64,000 nucleotides of DNA from a bacterium (GTDB lineage Bacteria > Margulisbacteria > Marinamargulisbacteria > JABIPA01): positions 1 through 64,000 of the forward strand of contig JABIPA010000068.1 in assembly GCA_018698675.1 (NCBI GenBank), given 5' to 3'. Of this stretch, positions 10,501 through 49,413 are shown one piece after another (the stretch's first letter is position 1; each line of letters begins with the position of its first letter). A model generated the notes under the pieces. It had not been told where the DNA came from. It did no database searches and saw only the letters and a program-made list of their open reading frames with translations. Both the position numbers and the translations under genes were made by a program.

Positions 10501-13500
10501 TAATAAAACCAAGGAATTTGCAGTAATATTGTTTAATACATGAAGCTCGTTCATTGTTACGGACCCATTTAATATTGTAGATTCGTTTACTACGAGATAG
10601 TTAAAGGTAGCTCTATCTGATTCTATATTACCTTCTAAAAATAAGTTGTCTGCAATTATATTTCCACTTACATGCAGCTCAGCATTTGGTGTTCGAGTTC
10701 CTATTCCGACAAATCCACCGTTAAATAGTCCAGCATATCTTGTACCACCCGTTCCAGAGACATCAATATTGAGTCCAATTGCAGTTGCATTTGCTTCAAG
10801 GCTTAAAGAAGATGTATCAATTTTTATTCCAGTTGCCGTTTTTTCATTAGCTAGCTTGTTTGAATTTGAATTAGATTCAACGTTTATATCTAGACCTGTT
10901 ATGTTTTTTCGTAAAAAGAAATGGGAGTCTTCAGCGGCGCCATCTATGGTAATAGCCACTTTTTCGACAGTGAAATCAGCACCTAATGGAGCTTCAATTG
11001 ATTTGTTAATTTCAAGTTGACCATATAAATTGGGGTTCGTTGTTCCTATTCCGATGTTTCCAAATTCATTTATATAGAAGGTACCATCACCAATATTGGC
11101 TGTCGTTGCGGTTATTCCATTATCAACAATCAAATTATTCGCCGAAATGGTTCCGACAACTTCAAGCTGCGTAGACGGCGTTGTTGTACCTATTCCAACG
11201 ACAGGTAGGTTTGTTGTTATTGACTTTGTAACAACAAGCGTATCGATTCCAATAGCTATTTCAGGGACAGAAAGAGAATCATTTAGGTTGAAATAGTTAG
11301 CGGAAACAGTCCCTGCTATTTCAAGGGCAACACTAGGGTCATCTACATTAATACCTACGTTTCCACCTTTAAATATTGCAGCTGCAACTTTTCCAGTTGA
11401 AGATGTTTGTACTCCTGAGACATCAACATTAAGACCAATGAAACTTGAGTTGTTCAAAAAGAAATCCGTCGCAGACTGACTTGCTTTAATATCTAAACCT
11501 TTTACCGTTACAGTGCCTGATTCTATCCCCCATTTTTTCTCAATATCTACGTTTATTTGATGACCTGTAAAGTTTTTTGTTTGAGCTTGTATTGAGTTGT
11601 GTTTAATCGAAGATTGAATATTTAGAGCGGTTGGAGCACCCATGCTAACACTATTTGTTACAGAAAACCCTCCGTCAACAAACGAATTGTTTAAATTGAA
11701 ATTTCCTGATACATCTAATTTTTTATTGTTATTATCCCAAGCGATACCAGATTCACCAATTGATTCTTCACCTGTCCAAAATGCAAGAAACCCGATATCT
11801 CCAGCTTCCTTTTTTAAAGGGGACGATATTTTTTTTAGCGTGTTTATTGGAGATTGATACCATAATTCGCCGTCTTCTACATAGAGGTTTCCGGACGCTT
11901 CACTAATGTTGGAAGATGTATCCATTAACCTTAAATTGTCGGCCGTCAAGTAACCGCCAATATCTAAGTTATCATTTAGGACAATTGTATTAGCAGAAAT
12001 TATTCCATCTACTTCTAGTTCTACAGACGGATTTAAAACGCCAATACCAACGTTTCCACTGATATAGTAAATATTTAACCCCTCGGTTTTCCACGGAGAT
12101 TCTTTCGGTTCGAATTTAGTATCTTGGATATATAAATCATTTTCAATATTCAGAGGACCGTCAACTAACATTGAATAAATTGATGAAACATTTGTCGTTC
12201 CAACAGCGACCTTGCCTTCTAATATACTATCTCCAACGACGTGAAGGTTTGTACTTGGGTCGTAGGTGCCAATACCAATGTTTTCGGACCCAATGCTAAT
12301 AACAGGGCTTGATTGGAAAAGACCAGATCCTGGTTGAATACTAAATATATCTTGGGTTACACCCATCGAATATTTATCTACTCCATCTAGGTCAAAAGTG
12401 ATTATGGGATCTTTACCACTCCTGTTTGATAGTTCTAATAAACTGTTTGGGGATGGCGTTCCAATTCCAATTAATCCTTGAGATCTATGGGTGTTTCCGT
12501 CAGATTTCGAAGGGTCTGCCCAAGGCGAACCTGGGTTCGGTTGCAGAGTTATTGTTGCGTCAGGATTGTCAGGATCTACAATTTGAAATGAAGTCCCTAA
12601 TATTTTTCCAACTACGGTTAACCTTTCTGTAGGGGTTGTTGTCCCTATACCTACATTTCCGGATGAGGTTACTACAAATACAGATGGCGTATTTGAGACG
12701 CTGTATCCCTCCGTATATAATAAATACTGATTAGGACTTGTATTTCTAATAGTTAAGGGAGCATTAGGTGTAACGGTTCCTATTCCAAAATTTCCATTCA
12801 TAATAGCTAAACGGGCCGTCCCTGGGTCCGATGTCCCTATGCCTACATTTCCTGATGTGTTAACAACTAGTGCATTTTTACCATCGTTATTTCCTATTGC
12901 CTTGAACAAATATTCTTTATTTTTGTCTCTTTGTATTGTCATTACGGCATCTGACGTTTCAGACGTACCTATACCTACGCCATTTGATGCTTTAATAACG
13001 AACTGGTTAGAACTTCCTGATTCAAAATTTGCATTTGAAGTAGGATCGTAATCTGCCCAAACAAAACTACCTTTATGAGCCGCAACTGCACGGTAACCAG
13101 CAGCGAAACTGTAATCACCTAAGGCTTGGTTTTCTCGACCACCGGGGACAACTGAATAGTCCCCTTCAGCGGTGTTTTTATACCCACCTAAGATTGCACT
13201 GCCTTCTCCACTAGAGATACCTCCGTAACCCATGGCAATTGAATAAGTTCCTATATTAATATTATCCCACTCGGTCCCTTCAACAGTACCTGCTCTAAAG
13301 GCAGCTTTGGCTGGAAAGAACATCATACGCGTACCTTTTCCCGAAGAGGGTAGGGCAATTTCTGAATTAATTGATCCTTGTATAACGACACCGGTGTTCC
13401 CACTGACATGCAAATTTGCCTCGGGATTACTTAGACCAACTCCTATTTTTTCGCCTTTAAAGGTAAATACAGGGATACTGAGATCTCCGCCTTTTGATAT

Positions 13501-17609: not shown

Positions 17610-18238
17610 TATTTATTCCTTTTGGTTGTTTAATTTTTTCGGTGATTATTCATGAATTGGCTCATGGGTATATGGCGTTGCGTCTCGGGGATTCTACGGC
17701 TAGGGATAGGGGACGTCTATCGTTTAACCCAATAAAACACTTAGATCCTATGGGATCTGTTTTGATTCCTGGATTATTGATGATTTCCGGAGCTCCTTTT
17801 TTATTGGGATGGGCAAAACCGGTTCCCGTAGACACTTCTAATTTTAAGAGTCCTGTTAAAGACATGATGTTTGTTGCGTTGGCAGGCCCCATGTCTAATC
17901 TTTTTATTGGGTTCACTTCTTTACTCGTCTACTCAGTTTTTATGAACAATGGTTTTTTTGAGCAAAATATCCAGTTTTATCGTTTGTCCACAAACGTAGT
18001 GGCCTACTTTTTTCAACTTAATATTTATTTGGCCGTATTTAATTTGTTGCCTATTCCGCCCTTAGATGGGTCAAGAATTTTGGCATTTTTTTTGAGTAGG
18101 GAATATCAGGCGAAACTTTATAGGCTAGAACAGTATGGGTTTTTAATTATATTTTTATTAGCGACGTTTGATATGTTATCTCCAATTGTGACGATATTAT
18201 CATATCCGTTAATTGGATTAGCTAGGTATTTATTTTAA
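17606..18238 (+). CDS. Site-2 protease family (M50) membrane metalloprotease
   Basis: 210-residue integral membrane zinc protease. HELAH (16-20) provides two zinc ligands and the catalytic Glu. The partner motif NLLPIPPLDGSRI (146-158) supplies the third ligand, D154. AGPMSN (93-98) is another family landmark. It has no PDZ domain, so it is the minimal S2P type rather than an RseP. It overlaps the Xer gene by four bases, and its stop overlaps the stop of the giant gene on the other strand. The substrate is unknown. Confidence 0.9.
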   Translation: MIFIPFGCLIFSVIIHELAHGYMALRLGDSTARDRGRLSFNPIKHLDPMGSVLIPGLLMISGAPFLLGWAKPVPVDTSNFKSPVKDMMFVALAGPMSNLFIGFTSLLVYSVFMNNGFFEQNIQFYRLSTNVVAYFFQLNIYLAVFNLLPIPPLDGSRILAFFLSREYQAKLYRLEQYGFLIIFLLATFDMLSPIVTILSYPLIGLARYLF

Positions 18239-21200
18239 TTTGCTTTAGACGTTAATCTTTCGATGTCTATTTTTATTTTATCTATTATGAGTTGTCTATT
18301 ATTAATTTTAGATTTTAACGTATCTATTTTTTGAGCTCCTTCGGATTTAAATAGATGTTGTTTTTGTTTTAGATTGCTTAACTTTTTAATTGATTCGGCT
18401 AAGACAAGCTTTCCAAAAGGAAATCCAACAACTGCGTTAACTTTTTTTCTTCCGAAAGTTATCGACGTTTCCCAAGATCTAGCAACTATCTTATCAACGT
18501 TATCTTTATTAATTTTTTCGGGACGGATTCCTATTCCGTAGCCATCGTTTTTACCGGACGGAATGATATAATCGCCGGCTCTTATTTGACCTTTAATTTT
18601 TATTGGAACTTGTCCTAAAAAAGCGGTTAATACAAGATTAGAGTCATCGCCCTGCCAGTTTCCAGCGATTATTGGAGCAGAACTAACAACCATGTGATGT
18701 TGCGTTTGATTCGTTTTTTTAGTTGCTTTTCCATTGATAATTCCAATTATGTCTCCACTTTCCATTGATTCTGTTTCGTTTAATTTTTCTATATATTCCG
18801 CATAGTCAGCTGCTCCAGAAGAGAAGGTAATACCTCCTTCTACGTTGGTATCAGCATCGTAACTACCTTCTATTGCTCCAATTGGAACAGGTGTTTCTTC
18901 GGTTCCATTAAAAAATGTAATGAAATTTGATGTGTGAGGAGGAAATGTGGTAAGTCCATATCCGTCATGTTGAATTGTTAAAATTCCTTTCGTTACCGTA
19001 TATCCAGCGGCTATTCCATTTGAATAAGAAAGTCCCTCCATTGTATTTTCAAGGTAAACTAGGTTTTGGTCTATGCTTGTCAAATCGTCTGAAAATGGCC
19101 ATTTATGGAAGTCGTTTCCAAGAGTATCAGGAGATCCATATACATGAAGTGCAGCTATCGGATCACTTGTACCTATGCCAATTCCTCCTTCCGGGGTAGG
19201 AGGAACAATAACTTGAAAGGCAGGATCTACAGACTCGTCTATTTCGTTAGGGATTCCATAAGCTTTCGCGGTAAAGATGGATTCCCACTCATTTTCACCA
19301 TGACCTACAGTAAACTTTGCGTTAGGATCTTCTAATAAAAGCTCCCCAATGATTACTCTAAGAGAAGATATAGACAAATCAGGATTTGCAGCTGATTTCG
19401 TATTATATCTTCCCATATAAAATGGATCTGAGTTGTCTGTATTCCAGTTATCGTAAGCTCCGACCATTGGGCCTCCAGAAAAATATAGCAAACTTCCCCA
19501 ATTGGATTCTTCGACGACGACCTCTTCATAATTTATACCTATACTAATATCTCCACTAACAGATAATGCTTCTTGTGGCAGATTGTATATAGGAGAATTG
19601 TTTGCTATTAAATTGATTCCGACTGCAGGTTCATATTCACCGTCTCCGTTTTTGATGTGTCCAATTCCTAAAGTAGGGTTCGATGTTGCGAGTGAATTTT
19701 CTGAGACTAGAAATTCTGTGTAAGTAATTACTCTTCCATCTTGTATCGGTTGTTTTCCTTGATCGTTAAACATTAAGGAAGACTCGTCTCCTCTTAACAT
19801 CAAGGTAACTCCTGATTCAATTAATGTGTCACTGCTCATTAAATCGGTAAGTTTTACGTGTAAGGCAACATCTGTGGACGGTGTTATCGTCCCAATTCCA
19901 ACGGTACCGCCTTGCGTTCCCAGTGGATACTTATAGCCATGAAATTCACCGAATCCAGGAGCTGGTTCTTGGCCATGGTCAGGGTCATTTATATTGACGT
20001 CGCTAAGATCTACTCTCAAGCCATAAAAAGCTTCGTCCGAAACATTCCATGTGACAGAGCCCAAGTACTTATTTTGTCTTATTTGTGCTTTTGAGTTGTA
20101 ATCATCGTTGTCAATGGTAGCGCCCATTTTAAAGGCCACTTCTAGTCCATGAACATCTTGTGAAAAATCAGTTTTAACGGTAGTTTCGATTTGTTCGAAA
20201 ACGTATTTTTCGATTGATGTTGTATTTCCTGAAAGGACAAAGTTTTCTGATGGTGCCGTAACCGGAATAAAAATATCTGTTGCTAAGTCATATTGTAGTA
20301 TATATAAACCCGGCAAATTTAATATCGTTCCTATATTGGATTCGTTATTAATCGCCCAATCGCTTGCCGAATCAGGGTGTATGATTAAATTGAAAGTATT
20401 TGTGTCAGCTGTGGAATCTCCTGTGTATGTGCCGACCGTAACATCGTAAGTACTTGATGTTTCTGAGTTAAACGCAATTTTTCCATCTTCATCAATTTCA
20501 AAAATATTATAAGTGGTACTTTTATCCATATATAATATGGGGTGACTTGATGACCTTTGCTTAATTGTTAAAGGAATATCTGAAACTGACGTACCGATTC
20601 CTACTAATCCTTCCGAAGTATTTGATGAAATTCGAAGCGCTTCGCCAGTTAATCTATTTTCAAATATAAATGATTGGTTACCGGAGTCTCCCCAAGACGC
20701 ATAGACATGACCATTGTTAGAGCTAACACCAAAATATAAATCATCGGTACCAGAAACGGAGCTAAGTCCAATTGTTCCTAGCGTATTTGATGTAATAGGA
20801 TCTGTGTTGAGAGAGTTGTCGTCGCCCGAGTGTATTTTAGACGCTGTTTTTAATTTAATATTAGAACTTATATCGACTCCATCCGAATTATCAAAATCGA
20901 AGCCTATCTGTCCCGAAGGTGTTATTTCAAAATACACATTATTTCCAGATGAAACTTTAAACATTGTATTTTCATTTTTAGATGTGATATGAAATTGACC
21001 TAGAGGCACTTCCGTATTTATTCCGAGAGTACCGTTTGCAACGACATTAAAAAAGTTTGAGTTGTTGTTTGGACTTACTATAAAAGGTATATCTACGTCA
21101 AAGTTCAGATGAAGTGCTGCTTCAGGAGATGTTGTCCCAATACCTATGGTTTTGTCATTTTGAATTGCAAGCATACCCTCTGAAGAGTTTCTAACAATTA

Positions 21201-24200
21201 AACTTTTATCTGAATTGGAATCAGACGGCCCTTTAATTGATAATAGTTTTTTATCGGTGGGAGTAATTCCAATTCCTATATTAAAAGAGGTTACAAGTAG
21301 TCCCAGCTCTCCATTTTTCCCTGTAGTTTTAAAACCTGGGGGGAATGTTGATGAAGTGTGACTAGCGTTGTATGATGGCGAAATTTGTAAAGTCGCTGTA
21401 GCCACATCTGCACCAATTATATCCGCACCAATTTTAACCGGTGCACCAGTAAATATTGCCGCAAATTTATCGGCATTTATATAATCGTTGTTTGCAGCAA
21501 AATATTTTGCTTTTAATGTAGATATATCAACTTTTAATCCAGTTGCGTAATTGGGGTCTGATCCCGCGAGACCAATTTTCTTATTTCCATTTAGTTCGAT
21601 TAGATTTCCAATAAATGTTGAATTCGTATTTATTACTCTAGGTTCAAAAGTCATTGTGTTTTTCAAGCTGCTAACTGGGTCTGTGGATTCAGATGAATTA
21701 AGCGTGCTAGAAATACTTAAACTTGCACTAGTAATAGTGAAGACATCTGTTGCACTATTTACCCAAGAAAAGTCTGGATTAGAGACAAGAACCCCAGAGG
21801 AATCATAATAAACAAAGTTTCCATTTGTTGTAATATTTATAGATGAAATATTTGCTGTGACAGTTTTTATATCATTGTTGTATACGCTATAGAGATGCCC
21901 TTGTTTGTTAGTGAACAAAGGTTGATAGACTCCAGATGCATTTGGAGTGGCGCCGTGCTTTAAAAATTTTATTCCTGCCTGAGATTGGATGGATTCCGAG
22001 ATGTTTACTGTATTAGGAAACCTAATTAATGAGTTTTTGATTGTTAAGTCTCCGGGGGAGTTTATTTCGTCTGAACTATTTTTGAATTTAAGGATGTCTA
22101 TCGTTGTATCAGCTAGTATGGCTTTTCCGTTTATATTAAAGCTACTTGTTGCAGATGTAGTAGGAACACCTAAGGTATTAAATGTTGCAACAATACCTCT
22201 TACGCTTGACGAGAAATTTAGAATGGTTCCATTTATCATTTCTTTTAGCATCTCATTAGAGTTTCCAAGAGACAGCGTGTCTAATGCGACAATGCTGTTT
22301 GCTTTGAATTTATTTAACGTAATATCTGATGTAACAACTAGATTTGTAAATATGCCTTTATTAATGTAGGGAAGAGATTTATCTTGATTTGAGAAATAAT
22401 TTGTTGCTTTTACCTCTCCAATAACCTCCAATTCTGTCGTTGGTAAACTAGTTCCTATACCGACATACCCTCCGTTTAATAAAGCTGAGTAGTTATTAGT
22501 TGCTTTGGATCCTAAGTCGACGATAACTCCTCTGATGTTTCCACTAGAAAGCTCATTCATCATTAAATTGATACCCTTAACGGTTATATCTCCTGAATTA
22601 TCTATTTTCCCTATAATATTCTTTGAAGTAGTTGCGTTAATTGACGATACAAATGTTAATGCAAGCCCGGCCAAGTCTCTGGATGAAGTGGTGTCTACAA
22701 TTAATGATTCTTTTGTTAAAGAGAAACCTCCGTCAGGATTTTCGTCGAACGATTTTATATAGTGAAAATCGGCTTCTGGTGCAGTGGTTCCTACTCCTAT
22801 TTTTCCTGTGGTATCTATTATAAGCCCAGAATCCATACTAATTTTGTTTGCATTTAATTCGTTTGTTTTTAGAGCTGTTGCTAGTATTGTTTCATCTGAT
22901 TCGATACCAAAAGAAGTAAGGGTTGAGACAGAATTCGAAATATTAATAGCGCCGTTGTTTTGAATTTCTAAAAGAGATGTTCCTTTCGAGTTAATGACTG
23001 ATAATGCTTTATCGGTAGCGTCGTTTTCCCCCGTGACAACTAGGCGGCCACTTCCAGTACTATTTGTCGATAAGTCATTTTTTCCAATAATAACATTTCC
23101 AGTTGGATTCACAATTAGAGCGTCATCTGTCGTATTAGTATCGTCTAAACTTTTGACCCACAATACATGATTTACGGAACTACTCGTATTTGTAATTGAA
23201 TTAATATGAAGAGAAGCTGACGGACTTAATGGGGTATCTGCTCCAACATAAACACTGGCTCCAGAAAATAGTGCCGGGTACTTAAATGCAGTTTTTTGTT
23301 CACCTGATTCTGTTAAATAATTTGCTTGTAAAGTACTTAGATCTACCTTTATTCCATATAGTAAATCATCTGTTGCTAAGGCAGCCGTACTTCCAGTGTT
23401 CGCCGTCGTAGTTATCGATAACCCACTAAAAATGGTAGATCCTATTGTTTGAGGTGTGACCCGTCTGGTAAACAGTGTGTTTATCGATTCAATCTGAATA
23501 TCACCCGTTTCTTCAGGCGATAGATAGGTCTCATGAAAGAGACGGGCCCCTATGTTCTCTGAGCCTATTGTTAAGACATTTATGTCATCATTTAATAAAA
23601 TATTTAGGCCGGAAACTGATGTCAGACTATGGTTATAATCAAAATATGGAACTCTACTTGAAATGGAACTTAATGGTTTTGATAAGTTACCTGTAATGTT
23701 TGTTCCATCAGAATGCGTGGTCGTAAAAAATAAATCATCGTTACTCGCTTTAGAAACAAAAATATTTGAATAATTTTGCAGAACGGATGGTGTTGTTACT
23801 GTTTCTTCTAAAAGGGCAACTGTTGTTAATATTGAATTGTTGAACTCTGTGGTTAATTTAATGTTTATAGATGGGGAAATTGTAACCGTGGATTCTGCTG
23901 TAATTAGAGGGGTAATTAAGCCAGAGGTTATCGACGATATTGTATCTACTGAGGTGTTTCCTGAAACGTGAAATTTTTGTTCAGGATTAGTTCTGCCCAA
24001 TCCAATATACCCTTTTTCTAAGATCGTTAATCGTTCAAAAGCCGTTCCTACGCTATTTGAATTAATAAAAACTAGAGAGGATCCGGTCACGCTTGAATTG
24101 GTTGTTGATACAGCCACTATTCCTGCAATTGTGTTGCCAATATTAAACTCGATTCCCGCGGCAGAACCAGTTGATCCTGGATCTCCTCCTGTATTTTGAA

Positions 24201-27200
24201 CATATATAGATCCCCATGTTTTATTATCAGAAGAGTCATATGTTTTATTTGACGAGAGGGCTATGTCTAGTCTTTTTTGCGCTGATGTAGTACCTATTCC
24301 TAGATACTGATTCTCTCCATAAGTTCTTAAAATATTATTTGTTATAACAAAAGATCCTGCTGTAGCAGAGTTAGAGACGACTAAAGAATCCATAGTAATA
24401 AGATCGTCAACAAACACTCCCTCGGGATGAATGGTGCTTGTGTTAACACCTAGACTAGTAAACGTTGCGTCATTTGCAGAAAGGGACTCGCTGATGAGCG
24501 TATTTACCGTCGTCGTACCATTTACAGAGAGAGTACGTTCGACAAATAAATATCCAATATCAGATTCTATGCTATTTAAACTAATTGGCTCCGAAACGAA
24601 CATGTCGTCGTATTGATAAAGGGTTGTAAGAGAGACCTCATTCATAACAGACGATCCTAACAAATAGTCGTCCGTTCCAACTAAATTATTAAAGGATGCT
24701 GAATCTTGACTGGTAAGAAAAGCTGCAGTAGGAAAACTAAACGCTCTGATTGTTCCGTTAACATGTAATGATGCTGACGAAGCAGGGGATGATGTTCCAA
24801 TGCCGATATTTCCGTTTTCAAAAATAGCTGAGTATTGGGTCCCTATATTTCCTGTTGATGTTACTATATCTATACCAACAATTTTTGAATCCGTTTCCCC
24901 TGTTAAATTTGATAGATCAATGTTAATAGGCGTTGCGTAAACGTCTGCATCAGCTTCGAATCCTAATGAATTAAATTCGTCGTTTGATTCAATAGACGCC
25001 TCTAAGGCGGTAATGTTTTCAGTAGTCAGACTAGACGCCAAATTATTATTGAGAGTGACACTTGTTTTTTTGAAGAAAAAATCGTCGCCCCTACTTGTAA
25101 ATGTTCTATTAAGTTCAAATAAAGCGGTAGGTTCCGTTGTTCCAAGTCCAACTCTTCCATTTGATATATGAAATGTTTCATTTTCGAATCTAAGTGTAGT
25201 TGAATCTATTCCTCCTGCGCTTAGGTTTGTACCTCTTGAGTCGCCAATTACTTCAAGATTCGTTTGCGGGGCGCTAGTACCTATACCAATATTGTCACTA
25301 ACAAACAGGCTAAAATTTCCGATGTTCGCAGCAAGTGCGCTAAGTCTATTTGTAATGTTTATTTTTGTTGCAATAATACTACCTTGTACATCTAAATCAG
25401 CGTTTGGAGTTCCACCGACCCCGACCTGCCCATGAAAAATAGCCGCCCTCTTAAACCCTTCACTTCCAACCGCTGCACTTTGTACGTTTACATCTTCTAT
25501 ATCAACATTTAGTCCTATTCCTATCCCGTTTTGAGAAAAGGAGATACCTTCTGGTTGATTTAGCGAGATGTCTAGTCCTTTTAGGAGGAAAGGATCACCA
25601 CTTAAACTGCTAGGCCAACCATCTATTGTTATGTTGATGCTGGAATTCGTATGGTCAAACGAATTTTCATGGTCTCCGTCATGCGTTAATGTTGAAGAAA
25701 CCTCATAAGCCTGATAGATATTAGGTGATCCTATTTTGATTTCGTTTAAATATTCGGCATCGTTATCTAGAACCGTTCTAAATGAATTTGTATAATTACC
25801 GGTAAGCGTAATACTAGGCGTTACGTCGTTCCAGACTACGTCAGCTTCATAAAGATAGGACCTTTCGCCTGATTCATGAGGAATTACCCAAAATACAAGT
25901 TTTCCTGATGGGTTATCAGTAGTCGCTCTTCCTTCCGATAAAACTTTCGAAATATTGTTAATAGTTGATGTTGTTTCTAATAACAAATTATTGTCAACGA
26001 TTTTTAAATCGGCAAAGTCATCAGCGGACGAATGGTCTCTAAATTGAAATTTAGAAAGTTTAACTACATTGTTTATTTTTAATTCTTCATTGACATGATA
26101 ACTGTTTCCCTGAATGGAACCACTTACACTTAACTCTGTTTGAGGGAATTTTGTATTAACACCTACGAATGAGCGTTGGGTTGAACTTACAATATTATTA
26201 TAATAAATACGATCCGGTGATTGTAATGGTTCCCATTTTACTCCGGCGGGCGAATATTTTTCGCCTTTGACAAATAAAGAATAAGTATTTAACGAAGGGA
26301 CTTGTGTGTTTTTAGTTGATAAATTTTCTTTTAAAACACCTAAGGTATTTCCAAATATTATTGGTTTTGTTGAATGTAATATCGACTCGGGTAGGGTAGT
26401 TCCTATACCCACTCCCATTTCACTATCATTAGCATTTATCACGATTGAAGGAGTAAGTGAATCTAGAGAACCTCCTTCGTTAAAGTGAAAATAAGGCAAA
26501 TCACTTTTTACACCTATAGAGTACTTGTCTTCTGCATCGATTTCGAAAGTTATGACGGGGTCCGATCCCGTAGGGTTTATTGTCAATTTACTTAACTCAA
26601 GTAAAGAATTTGGGGAAGTTGTGCCAATTCCAACATAGTTGTGTGTTGATTCAATATTACCTTCGTCATTTACGTTTCCAGAAGGGAAAAATAAATTTGG
26701 AGTCGTTTGTTCCCAAGACCAGACAATTAATGGCTTATCGCCTGATAATTCTTCTCCGGTAGGAAGCGTGTACCCAGTCGCTGCAATATTTCCACTTGTT
26801 ATATATATTCCTGCATCAATCTGATTTGGGAATTTACCGATCCCAACACGCTGTATATTATCTACAACGAATGCTGGTGAGACTGTTTCATCTTCAACTC
26901 CGTACGCAGTAAATACGTTATACGTTAAAACGTTATTTTCTTCACTAAGTGTATTTATTAAATATTTGCTATCAATCGTCAGGTCGGCGATTGTGTTTGT
27001 TGTGTTTACCGCAGTTTTACCGTCAACAATGAGCGACGATGTTATTATAGATGAAGAAGGAACGGAACCTAAAATAACATTGCCAGATGGAAGTATAGAA
27101 AAAAGACTATCGTTGTTTTCGTCAACGATATTTATTATTTTCTTCGAGTTTTCTGTTGTTGCAACGCTTATCGAAAGCTCTGTAGCGCTCGTTTTTGTAG

Positions 27201-29391
27201 TTCCAATTCCAACTCCATTTGCAAATACGACAAATTGATTTTCTGTACCAGTGGATGTTTTTCCTATACTTGAATGACCCCAAATGAATGAACCATGGTG
27301 AAGAGCTTGCACATTGCTTCCTAAAGCTAAACTATATATTCCCTGTGTTTCAGAATTTTGACCTCCTAAGACGGATGAATATGCTCCACCAACCTTATTT
27401 TGTCTACCACCAAGTGCCGACGTGTAGTTACCACTTGCTATAGAATTTCTACCAATTACTTGACTGTATTTACCGACATTTGAATATTGACCAACTGGAT
27501 TGTACTCTTCCGTTCTTTGAACATGATCCCAATCTTCACCTTTTGCAGGAGAGAATGTGTCTAAATGCCCAATTCTCAAGGCACTTCGAACAGGATACCA
27601 AATTAGTCTAGTTCCGTTTCCAGTTGCACCCATCGGTTCGTAGCTAGCGTCGTCACTTATCGATTCAAATTCAGAATTTCCAGTTTTATCCTCAACACGT
27701 TTTAAAAAAGATCCACTAAAAATAGATCCTATACTTCCGCTAACGTGAAGATTCCCTTGTGGTTCTTCAACACCTATACCCATTCTGTCATCAATACTTA
27801 CAAATAATGGAAATGACGAGCCTAGGGTTTTTCCAAATTCAACCTTAAATAGTCCATTTTTTCCAGCTTCAACTCCAAGTGTGTAAGATGAACTATCACC
27901 TAAGCTGAATGTCATTGCTGGGTCAATGTCAGGGGCGCCAACTCGTTGCGCTAGCTCTAAGCGATTCGATGGGTCTGGACGACCTATTCCTACATTTCCT
28001 TGATTGTAATAAATTCCATTTGGACCATAAAACCAGAACGTTCCAGATCGTATAGCGTTTCTAAAGTCGACTCCACCTAATAGTATTTTTCTAGCATTTA
28101 AAAGGCCTTCTACGTCAACTAAGAACTCAGGTGTGGTTGTACCAACTCCTATATTTCCATTTCCATCTATTTGAAATATTTTTTCGTTTTCGGTAGATGT
28201 TACAGATAAAATTATGTTTTCCGTTGTTTCTGTACTTTTAGATAATATTCCAACGGTAGCAAAAGGAATGGTTGTACCTAATCCTAATTGTATTTTATCT
28301 TCATTGAATTTGAAGGAAGTTAAACTACTAATAGATTCTCCGTCGGAATCTGGGAAATGTACGATACTATTTTTAATTCCGACTCCACCTAACCCTGTTA
28401 GTGATTTCCATCCTTCTTGGGTATATCCTTCAAATTCTGCATTTGTCCACTTTATGCTACCTTCTTCGTTACCTAGTGTGTTTCCAACAATTATTCCGTT
28501 TCTTATGTGTAATTTTTCTTTAGCGGAGATATACCCGATAGATACATTTCCTTCTAGATTTTGGTAATAGGTGTCGCTTGAATTTTCAGTTGGGCTCACC
28601 CACTCGAGAGCTGCGGTTAATACAGAGCCGCTAACAAGATATTCAGTGGCATTTATTGTTCCAGCAATATCTACCGTGTATTTTGGCCGACTTAATCCAA
28701 TTCCGATGAAGTCTGCTGCATCTTTAGGAATATATAATTTGTTGTTTTCTGTTGGTTTCCAGGTTAAAGCGTTACTTAGTTCTATTCCGTCTTTATAATA
28801 AGACGTTCCATTAGTTGTTCCTTTTACATCAACTTTATAGTTTGGAGTTGCTTGGTTGATTCCAAAGAAACTCTTTAATTTATTGTAATAAAAAGTAGGG
28901 TTAAATGATGTGCTTGATTCAGAAAAAACACGAATGTCAGAATTGATATTTACTGTCGATATAAAATTCCCGGTAACTTTATGGGATTCAATGTTTAGAA
29001 CATCATCTGCTAGTTCAGTTTTTATTACATAAGGAATAGATGTTAAAGGAAAAATACGTTTATCCCCGTTTAAAGAAATAGAAATGTTTGGACTTGATAG
29101 TGATAAGAGGTGTGGGTCTAATGGATGTTCTGGGGACCCTAGTTCAAGCGTAAAGTATCCATTTACAAATGTAATTTCTTTTGTTTCAGTAAACACGGCA
29201 TTTGCTGTAGGAGAACTTGTGTTTTGTAGGCCAATTGTTACTATAAACGGATCTGATGGGCGGACGTCAGTTCCAGTATGGACAAATACTCCAGAGATAG
29301 CTAATGGTCTTGGTTGGGCAAGCGAATAGGCATATGTGTAAAAAGATAGAATACACAGTAATGTAAGTAACCATTTTTTTAGTTGATTCAT
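18235..29391 (-). CDS. Giant tail-fibre/adhesin-like surface protein (3718 aa)
   Basis: The largest gene here. A signal peptide (1-24) precedes the same N-terminal beta domain as in the 3480-residue protein (ending TSIPYVIKT). GIGT-type repeats follow, then a YadA/Hep_Hag-like head block at about 630-725 (ALGGRQNKVGGAYSSVLGG). Six copies of the larger module come next. The C-terminal domain begins DYAEY at 3529 (GDIIG, PSGKNDG), and the last 60 residues are a basic coiled coil. The two giants align end to end in domain order but are well diverged, so they are old paralogues. It lies 18 bases downstream of the PorV-like gene, as third gene of an operon. Probable role: exported surface fibre or adhesin. 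Confidence 0.85.
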   Translation of the reverse strand: MNQLKKWLLTLLCILSFYTYAYSLAQPRPLAISGVFVHTGTDVRPSDPFIVTIGLQNTSSPTANAVFTETKEITFVNGYFTLELGSPEHPLDPHLLSLSSPNISISLNGDKRIFPLTSIPYVIKTELADDVLNIESHKVTGNFISTVNINSDIRVFSESSTSFNPTFYYNKLKSFFGINQATPNYKVDVKGTTNGTSYYKDGIELSNALTWKPTENNKLYIPKDAADFIGIGLSRPKYTVDIAGTINATEYLVSGSVLTAALEWVSPTENSSDTYYQNLEGNVSIGYISAKEKLHIRNGIIVGNTLGNEEGSIKWTNAEFEGYTQEGWKSLTGLGGVGIKNSIVHFPDSDGESISSLTSFKFNEDKIQLGLGTTIPFATVGILSKSTETTENIILSVTSTENEKIFQIDGNGNIGVGTTTPEFLVDVEGLLNARKILLGGVDFRNAIRSGTFWFYGPNGIYYNQGNVGIGRPDPSNRLELAQRVGAPDIDPAMTFSLGDSSSYTLGVEAGKNGLFKVEFGKTLGSSFPLFVSIDDRMGIGVEEPQGNLHVSGSIGSIFSGSFLKRVEDKTGNSEFESISDDASYEPMGATGNGTRLIWYPVRSALRIGHLDTFSPAKGEDWDHVQRTEEYNPVGQYSNVGKYSQVIGRNSIASGNYTSALGGRQNKVGGAYSSVLGGQNSETQGIYSLALGSNVQALHHGSFIWGHSSIGKTSTGTENQFVVFANGVGIGTTKTSATELSISVATTENSKKIINIVDENNDSLFSILPSGNVILGSVPSSSIITSSLIVDGKTAVNTTNTIADLTIDSKYLINTLSEENNVLTYNVFTAYGVEDETVSPAFVVDNIQRVGIGKFPNQIDAGIYITSGNIAATGYTLPTGEELSGDKPLIVWSWEQTTPNLFFPSGNVNDEGNIESTHNYVGIGTTSPNSLLELSKLTINPTGSDPVITFEIDAEDKYSIGVKSDLPYFHFNEGGSLDSLTPSIVINANDSEMGVGIGTTLPESILHSTKPIIFGNTLGVLKENLSTKNTQVPSLNTYSLFVKGEKYSPAGVKWEPLQSPDRIYYNNIVSSTQRSFVGVNTKFPQTELSVSGSIQGNSYHVNEELKINNVVKLSKFQFRDHSSADDFADLKIVDNNLLLETTSTINNISKVLSEGRATTDNPSGKLVFWVIPHESGERSYLYEADVVWNDVTPSITLTGNYTNSFRTVLDNDAEYLNEIKIGSPNIYQAYEVSSTLTHDGDHENSFDHTNSSINITIDGWPSSLSGDPFLLKGLDISLNQPEGISFSQNGIGIGLNVDIEDVNVQSAAVGSEGFKRAAIFHGQVGVGGTPNADLDVQGSIIATKINITNRLSALAANIGNFSLFVSDNIGIGTSAPQTNLEVIGDSRGTNLSAGGIDSTTLRFENETFHISNGRVGLGTTEPTALFELNRTFTSRGDDFFFKKTSVTLNNNLASSLTTENITALEASIESNDEFNSLGFEADADVYATPINIDLSNLTGETDSKIVGIDIVTSTGNIGTQYSAIFENGNIGIGTSSPASSASLHVNGTIRAFSFPTAAFLTSQDSASFNNLVGTDDYLLGSSVMNEVSLTTLYQYDDMFVSEPISLNSIESDIGYLFVERTLSVNGTTTVNTLISESLSANDATFTSLGVNTSTIHPEGVFVDDLITMDSLVVSNSATAGSFVITNNILRTYGENQYLGIGTTSAQKRLDIALSSNKTYDSSDNKTWGSIYVQNTGGDPGSTGSAAGIEFNIGNTIAGIVAVSTTNSSVTGSSLVFINSNSVGTAFERLTILEKGYIGLGRTNPEQKFHVSGNTSVDTISSITSGLITPLITAESTVTISPSINIKLTTEFNNSILTTVALLEETVTTPSVLQNYSNIFVSKASNDDLFFTTTHSDGTNITGNLSKPLSSISSRVPYFDYNHSLTSVSGLNILLNDDINVLTIGSENIGARLFHETYLSPEETGDIQIESINTLFTRRVTPQTIGSTIFSGLSITTTANTGSTAALATDDLLYGIKVDLSTLQANYLTESGEQKTAFKYPALFSGASVYVGADTPLSPSASLHINSITNTSSSVNHVLWVKSLDDTNTTDDALIVNPTGNVIIGKNDLSTNSTGSGRLVVTGENDATDKALSVINSKGTSLLEIQNNGAINISNSVSTLTSFGIESDETILATALKTNELNANKISMDSGLIIDTTGKIGVGTTAPEADFHYIKSFDENPDGGFSLTKESLIVDTTSSRDLAGLALTFVSSINATTSKNIIGKIDNSGDITVKGINLMMNELSSGNIRGVIVDLGSKATNNYSALLNGGYVGIGTSLPTTELEVIGEVKATNYFSNQDKSLPYINKGIFTNLVVTSDITLNKFKANSIVALDTLSLGNSNEMLKEMINGTILNFSSSVRGIVATFNTLGVPTTSATSSFNINGKAILADTTIDILKFKNSSDEINSPGDLTIKNSLIRFPNTVNISESIQSQAGIKFLKHGATPNASGVYQPLFTNKQGHLYSVYNNDIKTVTANISSINITTNGNFVYYDSSGVLVSNPDFSWVNSATDVFTITSASLSISSTLNSSESTDPVSSLKNTMTFEPRVINTNSTFIGNLIELNGNKKIGLAGSDPNYATGLKVDISTLKAKYFAANNDYINADKFAAIFTGAPVKIGADIIGADVATATLQISPSYNASHTSSTFPPGFKTTGKNGELGLLVTSFNIGIGITPTDKKLLSIKGPSDSNSDKSLIVRNSSEGMLAIQNDKTIGIGTTSPEAALHLNFDVDIPFIVSPNNNSNFFNVVANGTLGINTEVPLGQFHITSKNENTMFKVSSGNNVYFEITPSGQIGFDFDNSDGVDISSNIKLKTASKIHSGDDNSLNTDPITSNTLGTIGLSSVSGTDDLYFGVSSNNGHVYASWGDSGNQSFIFENRLTGEALRISSNTSEGLVGIGTSVSDIPLTIKQRSSSHPILYMDKSTTYNIFEIDEDGKIAFNSETSSTYDVTVGTYTGDSTADTNTFNLIIHPDSASDWAINNESNIGTILNLPGLYILQYDLATDIFIPVTAPSENFVLSGNTTSIEKYVFEQIETTVKTDFSQDVHGLEVAFKMGATIDNDDYNSKAQIRQNKYLGSVTWNVSDEAFYGLRVDLSDVNINDPDHGQEPAPGFGEFHGYKYPLGTQGGTVGIGTITPSTDVALHVKLTDLMSSDTLIESGVTLMLRGDESSLMFNDQGKQPIQDGRVITYTEFLVSENSLATSNPTLGIGHIKNGDGEYEPAVGINLIANNSPIYNLPQEALSVSGDISIGINYEEVVVEESNWGSLLYFSGGPMVGAYDNWNTDNSDPFYMGRYNTKSAANPDLSISSLRVIIGELLLEDPNAKFTVGHGENEWESIFTAKAYGIPNEIDESVDPAFQVIVPPTPEGGIGIGTSDPIAALHVYGSPDTLGNDFHKWPFSDDLTSIDQNLVYLENTMEGLSYSNGIAAGYTVTKGILTIQHDGYGLTTFPPHTSNFITFFNGTEETPVPIGAIEGSYDADTNVEGGITFSSGAADYAEYIEKLNETESMESGDIIGIINGKATKKTNQTQHHMVVSSAPIIAGNWQGDDSNLVLTAFLGQVPIKIKGQIRAGDYIIPSGKNDGYGIGIRPEKINKDNVDKIVARSWETSITFGRKKVNAVVGFPFGKLVLAESIKKLSNLKQKQHLFKSEGAQKIDTLKSKINNRQLIIDKIKIDIERLTSKAN
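19850..25650 (-). repeat. Six-copy protein-coding super-repeat in giant protein 2
   Basis: The larger module of giant protein 1 recurs here as well, six times, roughly at 25650-25390, 25040-24750, 23450-23200, 22690-22420, 21630-21410 and 20170-19860. Recognisable parts are G(L/I)xVDLSxL, a K(Y/F)xAxFxG turn and a following GIGT-like turn. Some copies have degenerate GIGT turns (YVGADTP, KIGADI). Copy number and order match the other giant gene. Boundaries are approximate. Confidence 0.65.
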
Positions 29392-43778: not shown

Positions 43779-43888
43779 ACTTAGTTAGCTAAGTAAATTG
43801 AAACCTATTTCGTCGTATGGTAGGCTTAAACGTAAGTTTTTAACCTCGTTTTAATATTGAATTTAGTTTCTTGGAGAATTTTTAATTG

Positions 43889-45166
43889 ATGCAACATTCC
43901 AATTTTTTTGATGACGCGAAGAAAGTTTTAGTTGGTGGAGTAAATAGTCCTGTACGTTCGTTTTCTTCTGTTGATGGAGATCCTGTTTTTGTAAAAAAAG
44001 GTAAAGGGTCTCGCTTTGTTGGAGAAAATGGTCAATCATACATCGATTATGTATTGTCATGGGGGCCTCTTTTATTTGGACATGCGCACCCAGAAATATT
44101 ATCCTATATTCAATCTACTATCTCCGATGGAACATCATTTGGAGCTCCTACTTTATTAGAGACAAAATTAGCGAACCTTGTCATAAGTTTTTTTCCAAGC
44201 ATAGAGAAGATTAGATTTGTAAACTCGGGTACGGAGGCTTCAATGTCTGCGATACGATTGGCGCGTGGATATACAGGTAAATCGTACATCGTAAAATTTG
44301 AAGGTTGTTACCACGGACATGTAAGTAGTTTATTGGTTTCGGCGGGTTCAGGTGCTCTTACTCATGGACAACCAGATAGTTTGGGCGTTTTAAAAGACGA
44401 AGTGAGCCATACATTGCTTGCAGAATATAATAACTCAGATCAAGTTGAAGATTTATTTAGACGTTATGGCGATAATATTGCGGGAGTTATTGTTGAACCT
44501 GTTGCGGGTAATATGGGGGTCGTTTTACCTAAAAATGGTTTTTTGGAGACACTTAGAACTTTAACTTCGAAACATAATTCATGTCTGATTTTTGATGAAG
44601 TAATGACTGGTTTCAGAGCTGGTATTCATGGCGCTCAACAGGTATTTGAAATAAAACCTGATATTACTATTTTAGGGAAAGTAATTGGAGGCGGACTTCC
44701 TTGTGGAGCGTATGGTGCTTCAAAAGAGATTATGTCATGTATTTCTCCCGAAGGTGGTGTCTATCAGGCTGGGACATTATCTGGGAATCCAGTAACGATG
44801 GCAGCTGGAATTGCCACTTTAGAGAAGCTCAAAAACGAACCAACTATTTTTGATTCAATAGAGGAAAAAACTAAACGTTTAATAGATGGTCTTCATACTG
44901 TAATGAAGAAGACAAATTTACCGTTTAAGACTCATTCTGTAGGAACTATGTTTTCTTTGTTTTTTACGGATGGAGTAATAGAAAATTTGTCGGATGTTAA
45001 GAAATCTCAATCGATTGATTTTAGAAAATTTTATCGGCGTGTACTTGAAAAAGGGGTCTATTTGGCGCCATCTCCTTTTGAAGCAGGCTTTATGTCGTCT
45101 GCTCATTCTGTTACTGATATTGAACAAACTATAGATGCCATTTATTATGGTGTTTCAGATTTCTAA
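43889..45166 (+). CDS. hemL: Glutamate-1-semialdehyde 2,1-aminomutase
   Basis: PLP enzyme that converts glutamate-1-semialdehyde to 5-aminolevulinate, the step after HemA. GGVNSPVRSF near the N-terminus, VNSGTEASMSAIRLARG, FEGCYHGH, DEVMTGFR and TILGKVIGGGLPCGAYG (PLP Lys 264) are all classic. 425 residues. I choose the ATG at 43889 with a GGAG about 13 bases upstream; a TTG lies one codon earlier. A 110-base gap separates it from hemB, so it may have its own promoter. Confidence 0.96.
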   Translation: MQHSNFFDDAKKVLVGGVNSPVRSFSSVDGDPVFVKKGKGSRFVGENGQSYIDYVLSWGPLLFGHAHPEILSYIQSTISDGTSFGAPTLLETKLANLVISFFPSIEKIRFVNSGTEASMSAIRLARGYTGKSYIVKFEGCYHGHVSSLLVSAGSGALTHGQPDSLGVLKDEVSHTLLAEYNNSDQVEDLFRRYGDNIAGVIVEPVAGNMGVVLPKNGFLETLRTLTSKHNSCLIFDEVMTGFRAGIHGAQQVFEIKPDITILGKVIGGGLPCGAYGASKEIMSCISPEGGVYQAGTLSGNPVTMAAGIATLEKLKNEPTIFDSIEEKTKRLIDGLHTVMKKTNLPFKTHSVGTMFSLFFTDGVIENLSDVKKSQSIDFRKFYRRVLEKGVYLAPSPFEAGFMSSAHSVTDIEQTIDAIYYGVSDF

Positions 45167-45224: not shown

Positions 45225-46343
45225 ATGAAGGTTTTCATAATTTCTAGTTTCATGTTTGCATTAGTTGTTCCAACTTTATCGTTTGAATCAACTGCTGATA
45301 AGGATGTTTTTGGGATTTCGATGTTAGAAACATACACGCAATCGATAGGAACTATTTTACTATCTCAGAATCAAGAAAATGGAGGCGATTCTTTTTTCAA
45401 TGATGATGAAACGTCAGATGCTGTTGAGAAAAAAGATTTAACAGATGACGAAATTGGAGAGTTAAACGATCAATATAATCGAGCTGTTAGAGAAAAGAAT
45501 TTTTCTAAACAGTTAGATGTTTTACAAAAATTGCCGGAATCTTCTATAAGTACCAAACAAAAAATCCAAATTGCGCAATTAGAGTTGTTTCATAAAGTTG
45601 AAGTCGAAGATAAAGAGAATTCGGAACTATTTAAAACAGATGGAGATGTATCTAAGTCGTTGAAGGTTCGATTGTCTGGTATTTATCGTGAAGCTCAGCA
45701 GCTATATATTGATGGTGAAAAAAAGATAGCTAGAGATATGCTAATTCATAGTATTTATCTTCATCGACGATTTTTTAAGGCGAAAAAATTCTTAGAATAT
45801 GGATTTGACCTTAAAGTTGGTTCTTATAAAGTAGAGAATATGGAATCTAAATACTGGAATCGTTCGTCTATTTCATTTTATGGAGGGAATTATCAAGGTG
45901 CAATTGAGGATCTTGAAATATTGACATACTTGGACCGAAAAAATCAGGAAATTTATGACCGTTTGGGATCTAGTTATTATATGAGTGGTCAAAAAAAGAA
46001 AGCTATTGGTGCATGGGAAACGTCTTTGTTTCTTGTTCCAGATAATACAGAATTATCCGATATTATTAATAAAACGAAAAAACTTCTAAAAGAAGAAAAT
46101 GATGAAAATAAGCGACGATTGGCAGAACGTAAAGCTTCGGAGAAACAGGATGAAGAGACGGTTGAAGTTGAAACACAATTGATGAGAGTGGCTGCAAAAC
46201 GTGACCAAGCATATAGTTATGCTCAAGAGTTGAAGGCTCAAGGTTTTTCAGCAATTGTCGAAGAAATGGAAAATGGAAAATTTGCAGTAAAGGTACCCAA
46301 ATCTGAATTGAATAAAGGTACGAAGAAAGAAGAGAATAAATAA
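45225..46343 (+). CDS. Exported TPR protein with SPOR-like C-terminus
   Basis: 372 residues. A signal peptide (about 1-19) is followed by an acidic low-complexity stretch (45-80). A helical region with TPR-like repeats follows (about 150-285: GIYREAQQLYIDGEKKIARDML, YQGAIEDLEILTYLDRKN and GSSYYMSGQKKKAIGAWETSL). A charged linker leads to a SPOR-like unit (about 308-358: RVAAKRDQAYSYAQELKAQG...AVKVPKSE), the fold that binds denuded peptidoglycan. AGGAG precedes the ATG. It is the first gene before the FliF-FliG/MotAB set. It could help place the motor in the cell wall, as TPR proteins do in other MotAB-type machines; that is inference. Confidence 0.75.
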   Translation: MKVFIISSFMFALVVPTLSFESTADKDVFGISMLETYTQSIGTILLSQNQENGGDSFFNDDETSDAVEKKDLTDDEIGELNDQYNRAVREKNFSKQLDVLQKLPESSISTKQKIQIAQLELFHKVEVEDKENSELFKTDGDVSKSLKVRLSGIYREAQQLYIDGEKKIARDMLIHSIYLHRRFFKAKKFLEYGFDLKVGSYKVENMESKYWNRSSISFYGGNYQGAIEDLEILTYLDRKNQEIYDRLGSSYYMSGQKKKAIGAWETSLFLVPDNTELSDIINKTKKLLKEENDENKRRLAERKASEKQDEETVEVETQLMRVAAKRDQAYSYAQELKAQGFSAIVEEMENGKFAVKVPKSELNKGTKKEENK

Positions 46344-46472: not shown

Positions 46473-47924
46473 ATGAAAAAGTTAATTGTTGTACTGGCTT
46501 TGTTGTTTTTTTCACCATCATTGTTTGCTGGATATGTAGAAAAAATCGAGCTTGAAAATAGTATGACTGAGAAAGCTCAAAAGGCAATCGACGGTGTATA
46601 CGGGAAAGGGCGGATTTTTGTTCGAACTAAGGTAGATCTAGCGAAAGATTCGTGGAGCATTAAGTACACGGAACAGTCAAAAATCAAAGTTGAAAAATCT
46701 ACTGCGGTGAAAACAACAAAAGAAAAAATATTAATTCTTCCTGGATACCCAGTTATTAAAAACCTTTCTCCTGATAAATTACAACAGTTACCTTATAACT
46801 CTAGAGTAGAACGAACTCCCCCTAAGATTAATAAAATTACAGTTGATTTGATTGTTGATAAGAAGTTTCCTAATTCTAAACTTAATAAAGTTAAGAAATT
46901 AATTGAGAACGTTTTGGAACTGAATCCAAAACGTGGCGATAAAGTTAATTCTGAACGGAAAAAATTCCTAAAAGGAGCGGCTGTTCCTCCAACTCAAAAT
47001 ATTGTTATAGCAGGCGAAAATGAAAATATATTTGGAATATCAAATGTTCTGGATATGATTACTATATTACTTTTACTTGTTGGTATTGGACTGTATGGTT
47101 TCTTCGCCTCTAAAGCATCGGCTGCATCTGGAGAAGGTAGTGGTGGAAGTGGTGGAGATAGTCCAAATATTAGTGTAAATCCGAATATTGAACTTCCGAA
47201 AGGTGGCAGTGGTGGCGGTGGGCGTATGAAACTAACCCAAACTGCTCCAGTTAAACAATACTTTGACTTTGTTCAAGATGATAATATCGAAAAGTTAATT
47301 TTTGTTTTGAAAAAAGATGAGACGCCTATAGAACAGGTTGCTGTTGTTGTGTCTTTTCTTGAGGCACACTTAGCTTCTCGATTGTTAACGGAATATGATT
47401 TAAATGATCAAGCTAAAATCGGGACGATGATTATAGATGCTCAATTACTTAAACGGGCTGTATTAGACAAAATTGAATCTAAAATAAAAGATTCTTTAGA
47501 ATGCTTAACAGGTGGGAAATCTATATTTAAAGATGTTTTTGACTTTATTCCGAGTGAAGTGAAGAAACAGATTTTAGATGTTCTAGGAAAGTCGGATCCT
47601 AAGGGATATAAGAAGTTTAGAGCTAATGTTGTCATTTTTGATGACCTTAAGTTTTTATCTGATGATGAATTGAAGACAGTTTTCTCTGATGCTAATTTAG
47701 AAATGTTATCTAAAGCATTGATAGGTGTTAGTAAAGATGTCCATCAAAAAATATACTCAAACTTAAATCCGAGTGCAAAAGATATGGTTGAGCAGTATTT
47801 GAAATTAAAAGGAAAGACCTCTACTAAGAAAGATATTGATAAAGCTCAGGCATATATTATTGATATTGTTCTTAGGCTAGAAAGCGAAGGCCTTGTAAAG
47901 TTACGTGAGAAAATTGGAAATTAA
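46473..47924 (+). CDS. Single-chain FliF-FliG-like rotor protein
   Basis: 483 residues; not an ordinary family member. Order: signal peptide (1-19); an exported domain (22-165) resembling the third ring-building and beta-collar part of FliF (AIDGVYGKGRIFVRTKVDL, LPGYPVIKNL, KITVDLIVDKKF, LELNPKRGD); one membrane span (about 191-212); a Gly/Ser-rich linker (216-250); a FliG middle domain (about 260-345, YFDFVQDDNIEKLIFVLKK); and a FliG C-terminal domain (385-480, VVIFDDLKFLSDDELK, NLNPSAKDMVEQYLK). FliG's N-terminal, FliF-binding domain is absent, as expected if fusion replaces it. By hand alignment, charged torque residues of FliG-C are mostly lost. 34 bases before motA. Confidence 0.8.
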   Translation: MKKLIVVLALLFFSPSLFAGYVEKIELENSMTEKAQKAIDGVYGKGRIFVRTKVDLAKDSWSIKYTEQSKIKVEKSTAVKTTKEKILILPGYPVIKNLSPDKLQQLPYNSRVERTPPKINKITVDLIVDKKFPNSKLNKVKKLIENVLELNPKRGDKVNSERKKFLKGAAVPPTQNIVIAGENENIFGISNVLDMITILLLLVGIGLYGFFASKASAASGEGSGGSGGDSPNISVNPNIELPKGGSGGGGRMKLTQTAPVKQYFDFVQDDNIEKLIFVLKKDETPIEQVAVVVSFLEAHLASRLLTEYDLNDQAKIGTMIIDAQLLKRAVLDKIESKIKDSLECLTGGKSIFKDVFDFIPSEVKKQILDVLGKSDPKGYKKFRANVVIFDDLKFLSDDELKTVFSDANLEMLSKALIGVSKDVHQKIYSNLNPSAKDMVEQYLKLKGKTSTKKDIDKAQAYIIDIVLRLESEGLVKLREKIGN

Positions 47925-47958: not shown

Positions 47959-48741
47959 ATGGATATAAATGGGATTCTTGGTATAGCTTTAACTTATGCG
48001 GCTTTTTATTATGGTGTTCCTGCGTTAAGGGAGTCCTTTTCAGTTTACGTTGATGTGAATTCGTTTATTTTAGTTTTTGGAGGAACTGTTTCAGCTACGT
48101 TGCTAAGTACGTCGTGGAAAGAATTTAAAGCTATTTTAGTCGTTTTTAAACAGCTGGTTTTTAAACCTAAGAAATTAGATCCTAAAGTAGCGGTTTCATT
48201 ATTAGTTAAAATATCTGAATTATCTCAAACTCAAAGTAAACAATCTTTGGTTAAAGAAGGCGAAGGGGTTGGCGACGGATTTTTAGAACATGGATTGGGT
48301 TTGGTTGGAGCCGGACTTGATAGAGCCTTTATTGAAAAAGCTTTGGAAACAGATATTAATGAAATTAAAAGAAGACATGATTCTGTAATTAGTAAAGTAA
48401 GGACAATGGGAACCTTTGCTCCAATGTTTGGTATGGTTGGGACCGTAATTGGAGTTACTCAGGTACTTCAGAACGTAACAGATATCGATACCATCGTTTC
48501 GGGGATGTCTCTTGCATTGTTAACGACTCTCTATGGTCTTATTTTGTCTACTGTAATATTTATTCCTACGGCAAATAAACTTAAAGGGAAAAGTGCAAAA
48601 GAGTTAGTAACTAAAGAAATTATTGTTCAGGGGATTCTTTCAATATTAGATAAGGAAATCCCTCTTAAAGTTGAAAAGTACTTAATGGCATTTTTAGAAA
48701 CTAAAGCTAAAACCGAACAAAAAGGAAAAAAAGGTAAGTAG
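47959..48741 (+). CDS. motA: MotA-type stator protein
   Basis: 260-residue inner-membrane ion-channel subunit, partner of MotB. Four spans are visible (about 4-22, 34-51, 150-172 and 183-204), with a cytoplasmic loop between spans 2 and 3. The two conserved prolines are P155 (FAPMFGMVGTVIGV) and P203 (FIPTANKLKGKS), 48 residues apart as in flagellar MotA. The loop segment that normally carries the FliG-contacting Arg reads TQSKQSLVKE; the Glu is kept but Gln replaces the Arg. ExbB/TolQ is less likely because the loop is long and a true MotB follows directly. Confidence 0.88.
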   Translation: MDINGILGIALTYAAFYYGVPALRESFSVYVDVNSFILVFGGTVSATLLSTSWKEFKAILVVFKQLVFKPKKLDPKVAVSLLVKISELSQTQSKQSLVKEGEGVGDGFLEHGLGLVGAGLDRAFIEKALETDINEIKRRHDSVISKVRTMGTFAPMFGMVGTVIGVTQVLQNVTDIDTIVSGMSLALLTTLYGLILSTVIFIPTANKLKGKSAKELVTKEIIVQGILSILDKEIPLKVEKYLMAFLETKAKTEQKGKKGK

Positions 48742-49413
48742 ATGGCTATCCAGAAAGTTGTAGAAGCAGAAGAAGAGGATAATGGTAGTGAGGTAGGAAC
48801 CGTATACGGTGACATGATTACCTTTATGATGTGTCTTTTTATCATGTTATTCGTTTTGGTTTATAATGAAAAAACGGATGATACTTTTTTTGTACAGATG
48901 CGCTTGAAGTTTGGGGCTAAAGATATTGAACAACAAGAGCATCTTACATCTGAATCTTTATTTATTAGTAAAATTGCTGGATATATTAAAGAAGAAGAAT
49001 TGGAAGATGAAGTTCAAGTACTTGTTGATGAACAAAAAATTAAGCTCATACTGAATTCCCCGATATTGTTTGAAAGTGGCGCTGCTACGTTGACCCCTCA
49101 TGGGTTTAAGGTCATGAGAGGTTTAGGTAAGGTTCTAGGACATGTTAGAAATCCACTTATTATAGAAGGTCATACAGATAATGTTCCTATTCGTACAGAG
49201 GAATTTGAGTCTAACTGGGTATTGTCCTTTTTTCGTGCTTATTCTGTTGTTAAATTTTTTATGGCTAATATGGATTACCCAGCAGATCAGTTGTCTGCAA
49301 TTGGGTATGGAGAATATCGGCCAGTTGCTGTAAATGATACCCGTGAAGGCCGTCAGAAGAATCGACGGATAGAAATTAACCTAATTCGCGTCTCTCAATC
49401 TGAATCCAACTAA
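48742..49413 (+). CDS. motB: MotB-type stator protein
   Basis: 223 residues. A short cytoplasmic tail is followed by one membrane span (about 24-43) starting VYGDMITFMMCLFIML, where D24 is the ion-binding Asp. The plug/linker (44-105) leads to an OmpA-type peptidoglycan-binding domain (about 110-216): LFESGAATLTPHG, EGHTDNVPI, NWVLSFFRAYSVVKF and RQKNRRIEI. It starts immediately after the motA stop. It would form a 5:2 stator with MotA. Flagellar-type MotB rather than TolR or a simple OmpA lipoprotein, given the span and Asp. Confidence 0.92.
   Translation: MAIQKVVEAEEEDNGSEVGTVYGDMITFMMCLFIMLFVLVYNEKTDDTFFVQMRLKFGAKDIEQQEHLTSESLFISKIAGYIKEEELEDEVQVLVDEQKIKLILNSPILFESGAATLTPHGFKVMRGLGKVLGHVRNPLIIEGHTDNVPIRTEEFESNWVLSFFRAYSVVKFFMANMDYPADQLSAIGYGEYRPVAVNDTREGRQKNRRIEINLIRVSQSESN

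Follow-up and report, generated by a model that had tools for sequence, protein, structure and literature searches.

A FliF–FliG fusion protein encoded with its own MotA/MotB-like stator and without flagellar filament genes in an uncultured bacterial group

In the flagellar motor FliF and FliG, the two components of the turning ring, are separate proteins. A single open reading frame in a 64,000-nucleotide stretch of contig JABIPA010000068.1 (assembly GCA_018698675.1), hereafter the window, appeared to join parts of both, which raised the questions of whether this fusion is real and whether it serves a flagellum or another machine. The reading frame encodes 483 amino acids from an ATG start codon and lies on the plus strand among the following genes, whereby the names hemL and rho-like were assigned by eye from the translations.

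43886–45166 (+), hemL
45225–46343 (+), periplasmic TPR protein (372 aa) with an N-terminal signal/anchor, a TPR bundle and a C-terminal SPOR-like beta-alpha-beta-beta domain, first gene of the operon
46473–47924 (+), FliF–FliG fusion (FliFG, 483 aa), the predicted rotor chain
47959–48741 (+), MotA-like stator protein (260 aa)
48742–49413 (+), MotB-like stator protein (223 aa) with MotB plug, OmpA peptidoglycan-binding domain and ion-site Asp24

The MotB-like gene is followed by a convergent rho-like gene. Within the fusion, the following segments were distinguished.

46473–46529 (+), signal peptide or first hydrophobic segment (residues 1–19), MKKLIVVLALLFFSPSLFAGY
46542–46961 (+), FliF ring-building motif 3 (RBM3), S-ring-type domain (residues 24–163), with a collar-like low-confidence insert at residues 72–105
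47037–47108 (+), single transmembrane span (residues ~189–212), equivalent of FliF TM2
47127–47246 (+), Gly/Ser-rich disordered cytoplasmic linker (residues 219–258), in place of the FliF tail and FliG_N
47259–47504 (+), FliG middle domain (residues ~263–344)
47583–47900 (+), FliG C-terminal domain (residues 371–476)
47769–47810 (+), remodelled torque helix (residues 433–446)

Hydropathy analysis placed hydrophobic segments at residues ~4–22 and ~189–212. Pfam searches gave matches above the curated cut-off for FliG_C at 371–476 (64 bits, E 1.8e-17) and for YscJ_FliF_C (PF08345) at 110–159 (24.8 bits, cut-off 23.8), while FliG_M at 287–343 remained below its cut-off (17.7 bits). The TIGR00207 fliG model matched residues 253–474 with 67 bits, which is below its equivalog cut-off. 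No match was obtained to PF01514, which represents RBM1/2, or to PF14842, which represents FliG_N. Among 24 family members, FliG_C was detected in 24 and FliG_M in 23, but YscJ_FliF_C passed E 0.1 in only 9. A profile–profile comparison of the exported part with canonical FliF of the same phylum aligned it together with the span to the RBM3–TM2 region (hhalign probability 92%, E 5.8e-7).

The AlphaFold model supported this domain assignment. The separate domains were predicted with confidence (pLDDT mostly 83–92 in RBM3 and 85–93 in FliG), the exported domain showing the order alpha, beta, collar-like hairpin with a disordered tip, beta, alpha, beta. A helix covers residues 189–218, and pLDDT fell below 50 at residues 219–258, a region that is also variable in the family alignment. 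As pTM was 0.40, only the separate domains can be trusted and not their arrangement. A Foldseek search of the PDB with this model returned FliG M/C structures and FliF S-ring/RBM3 structures (7cg7, 6sd3, 6scn, 8ftf, 6sd1 and 8z4d) and nothing else at E<=0.001, with SpoIIIAG and EscJ/PrgK-type ring-building proteins far behind. An unrelated N-terminal domain can thus be rejected. These data confirm the initial annotation, which had described a reduced FliF with one span joined to the FliG middle and C domains, with loss of FliG_N. Its suggestion that the fusion replaced the N-domain has an experimental precedent in an engineered Salmonella FliF–FliG deletion fusion that lacks most of FliG_N and is motile (PMC7355467).

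The fusion is not an artefact of assembly or a frameshift, since a copy with 94% identity is present in a second genome of the genus. Full-length homologues were found in 19 of the 27 genomes of the class, including that of the window, with relatives at 29–94% identity by tblastn and 26–40% in the alignment. In addition, one is split over contigs (genome G012) and one is divergent (genome G003). In 13 genomes, again including that of the window, the order TPR–FliFG–MotA–MotB is contiguous, with gaps of −44 to +42 bp in the 12 relatives measured, i.e. an operon, and hemL is usually located just upstream. Five class members (loci L056, L061, L063, L068 and L072) have TPR–FliFG without adjacent MotA/MotB. 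Four of these retain only a more distant MotA elsewhere and none was found in genome G026, which is 55% complete.

Three further families of the phylum (f19, f21 and f23) contain several fusion or FliG-M/C genes per genome (up to 8 profile matches, canonical FliG included), often beside their own MotAB, a second M/C-only FliG and homologous giant exported proteins with weak Ig-like matches. The same genomes have flagellin and a separate canonical FliG of 337–343 aa. Thus, the fusion is a different machine from the flagellum. In a tree of FliG M/C parts of the phylum, the fusions and M/C-only copies were divided from the separate FliGs by a 99/91 branch. A single origin of the fusion is not excluded by this tree, but it is not shown either.

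The genome of the window (2.49 Mb, 74 contigs, 91% complete) encodes one FlhA, one PF01514 FliF, FliM, FliN and rod/ring proteins, but no flagellin. PF00669 was detected in 0 of 27 genomes of the class. The export and rod genes lie on other contigs than the operon. The flagellar FliG of this genome (locus L045, 8542–9273, minus strand; 243 aa) consists of FliG_N, an acidic linker and a partial FliG_M and lacks FliG_C. It belongs to a set of flagellar-type export, rod, FliF and FliM/FliN genes (L045 and L042/L043, contigs 31 and 74) that occurs without flagellin in most genomes of the phylum (FlhA in 49/56), while those with true flagella mostly have two FlhA and two FliF. This set may represent a phylum-wide non-rotating, filament-less flagellar-type secretion system. 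Only two MotA-like stators were found in the genome of the window, one in the operon described here and one in a second motor-like operon on contig 15 (locus L044, 1774–10632, minus strand), whereas a third, weak hit is TolQ/ExbB-sized. The second operon encodes MotA, MotB, a FliM-middle-domain-like protein (171 aa, Pfam FliM below cut-off), a phosphofructokinase-like protein (by eye), a FliF-like membrane protein, a FliG with all three domains and two OM/TPR-type proteins. Hence, FliG_C occurs in this genome only next to these two stators.

The stator proteins were examined for residues required for function. The MotA-like protein matched Pfam MotA_ExbB (E 2.5e-25) and is closest to solved flagellar MotA pentamers (E 3.7e-39). 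The equivalents of MotA P173 and P222 were present in 21/21 sequences and the MotB ion-site Asp in 20 of 20 readable sequences, so the stator should conduct ions. In contrast, the equivalent of MotA R90 is not conserved, and Glu was found at the E98 position in 9/21 sequences. In the rotor chain, using the presumed E. coli numbering, mapped through the T. maritima FliG sequence, the equivalents of K264, R281 and R297 are lost in 28/28 fusions, D288 is replaced by Q in 25/28 and D289 by Y, F or W in 23/28. The canonical FliGs of the same phylum keep K, R, E, E, R at these positions. The EHPQ motif for FliM binding is not conserved in the fusions. This is what one expects from a dedicated rotor–stator pair without a switch complex, but it could also mean that the stator contact is weak or different.

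Evidence for a periplasmic partner came from the upstream gene. A Pfam TPR match was found in 18/18 orthologues, and the AlphaFold model of the TPR protein (pLDDT 82) showed a TPR bundle at residues 74–311, supported by Foldseek TPR hits, followed by a strand at 317–323, a helix at 326–338 and strands at 344–347 and 353–358. The SPOR resemblance of this terminal domain is by eye and was not confirmed by Pfam. In two families, the TPR region, with SLH-like repeats, and the FliFG region are one protein (loci L054, 855 aa; L046, 911 aa; L048, 886 aa), whereas in the sister operon L052 they are two adjacent genes. PorV/UPF0164-like outer-membrane proteins (by eye) are encoded beside them at these loci. 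Such natural fusions are good evidence that the TPR protein acts with FliFG on the periplasmic side.

Taken together, the data are best explained by a dedicated, non-flagellar, ion-driven rotary motor with FliFG as its rotor. We hold this view with reasonable though not full confidence, as the motor core is well supported by sequence while ring formation, rotation, direction and load are inferred. In this model, the exported RBM3 domain builds an S-ring-like ring in the periplasm, and the single span and flexible linker hang a ring of FliG M/C domains on the cytoplasmic face with fixed 1:1 stoichiometry, so that FliG_N and the FliF tail are not needed. The co-encoded MotA5:MotB2-type stator, anchored to peptidoglycan by its OmpA domain, would use the ion gradient to turn MotA against FliG_C through a remodelled interface that would not cross-react with flagellar parts. 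With no FliM-binding motif and no FliM/FliN in the operon, it is probably a one-direction motor. The TPR protein would ride on the RBM3 ring and pass the motion to the cell wall, outer membrane or a surface protein, the load most likely being surface movement (gliding-type) or an envelope process and not a flagellar filament. It is possible, although somewhat less likely than not, that these proteins constitute a previously undescribed family of stand-alone rotary motors in an uncultured phylum, duplicated into several parallel motors per cell in some lineages, that drives periplasmic or surface machinery. We found no description of a natural FliF–FliG fusion, of non-flagellar FliG or of this lineage in the open-access papers searched, which does not prove that none exists.

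A more specific form of this model, in which the rotor is a gliding or surface-motility motor that in families f19 and f23 moves the giant Ig-domain exported proteins encoded next to it, remains tentative and rather unlikely. Homologous giant genes (loci L078, L079, L053 and L080; over 1350–2090 aa, cut by locus ends) lie directly beside FliFG–FliG2(–MotAB) and start with signal-like hydrophobic segments, and OM-barrel-like genes lie beside other copies. L052 and L055 instead have long coiled-coil proteins, DivIVA-like in L052. However, the giant proteins have only weak Ig-like matches, no adhesin gene is adjacent in the window operon and no motility is recorded for this lineage. Two giant reading frames of the window (4600–15042, minus strand, 3480 aa; 18235–29391, minus strand, 3718 aa) gave no Pfam match above cut-off and are not adjacent, and we do not claim them as the load.

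Alternatively, the complex might be a linear force transducer or regulated channel of the Tol–Pal/TonB or AglRQS kind, in which MotAB drives conformational change of FliFG and the TPR protein without a rotating ring. The small operon with a periplasmic TPR/SPOR-like partner would fit, and MotAB-like motors power Tol, Ton, Agl and Gld systems (PMC9389320). We consider this unlikely, as those systems have no FliG/FliF rotor, the retention of RBM3 and FliG M/C in one chain is a specific signature of ring rotors and the stator is MotA-type and not TolQ/ExbB-type. Still more doubtful is the idea that FliFG supplies the missing torque domain to the flagellar-type export/rod apparatus, which has FliF, FliM, FliN and FlhA but no FliG_C of its own in the window genome. 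FliFG brings its own RBM3 and span and lacks FliG_N, so it cannot sit on the canonical FliF in the usual way, its FliM-binding motif is lost and it is not linked to the flagellar-type genes. Moreover, families of the phylum that have the apparatus but no fusion exist (f20, f22 and f26), and fusions also coexist with complete flagella. A decayed flagellar remnant without function, suggested by the lack of flagellin and the truncated flagellar FliG, is very improbable given intact reading frames and operon in about 20 class genomes at 26–94% identity, invariant functional residues and expansion to several copies elsewhere.

The flagellar rotor is usually thought to exist only as part of a flagellum. 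A conserved operon with just the rotor face, S-ring, stator and a periplasmic partner would show that the torque-generating core can work as an independent module. It provides a minimal rotor (one gene) plus stator (two genes) for testing what is needed to convert ion flow to rotation, and bears on whether the flagellar motor and export apparatus joined, or can be separated, in evolution. The replacement of the charged torque interface by a Q/aromatic pair is a natural test of which contacts are needed.

Compared with the bacterial flagellar rotor, i.e. the FliF MS-ring and FliG of the C-ring with the MotA/MotB stator, FliFG shares the RBM3/S-ring domain, one span and the FliG M/C domains, together with a MotA5MotB2-type stator with ion-site Asp and peptidoglycan-binding domain. 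It differs in being one chain without RBM1–2, the first TM, FliG_N or a FliM site, in its replaced charged torque interface, in the absence of export gate, rod, hook or filament from the operon and in its periplasmic TPR partner. Engineered FliF–FliG fusions, namely the Salmonella full-frame and deletion fusions and the Vibrio FliFG used for the S-ring structures 8z4d/8z4g, likewise form a covalent FliF–FliG rotor, but they keep whole FliF and serve a flagellum, while the fusion described here is natural, much shorter and separate from flagella. GldLM, AglRQS, TolQR and ExbBD are also ion-driven inner-membrane motors acting on the periplasm or outer membrane, but they have no FliF/FliG-type rotor ring, whereas here a flagellar rotor face is kept. 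Finally, SpoIIIAG and the EscJ–PrgK ring-building proteins share the RBM fold, with weak Foldseek hits, but have no FliG domains and no stator and match less well than FliF RBM3.
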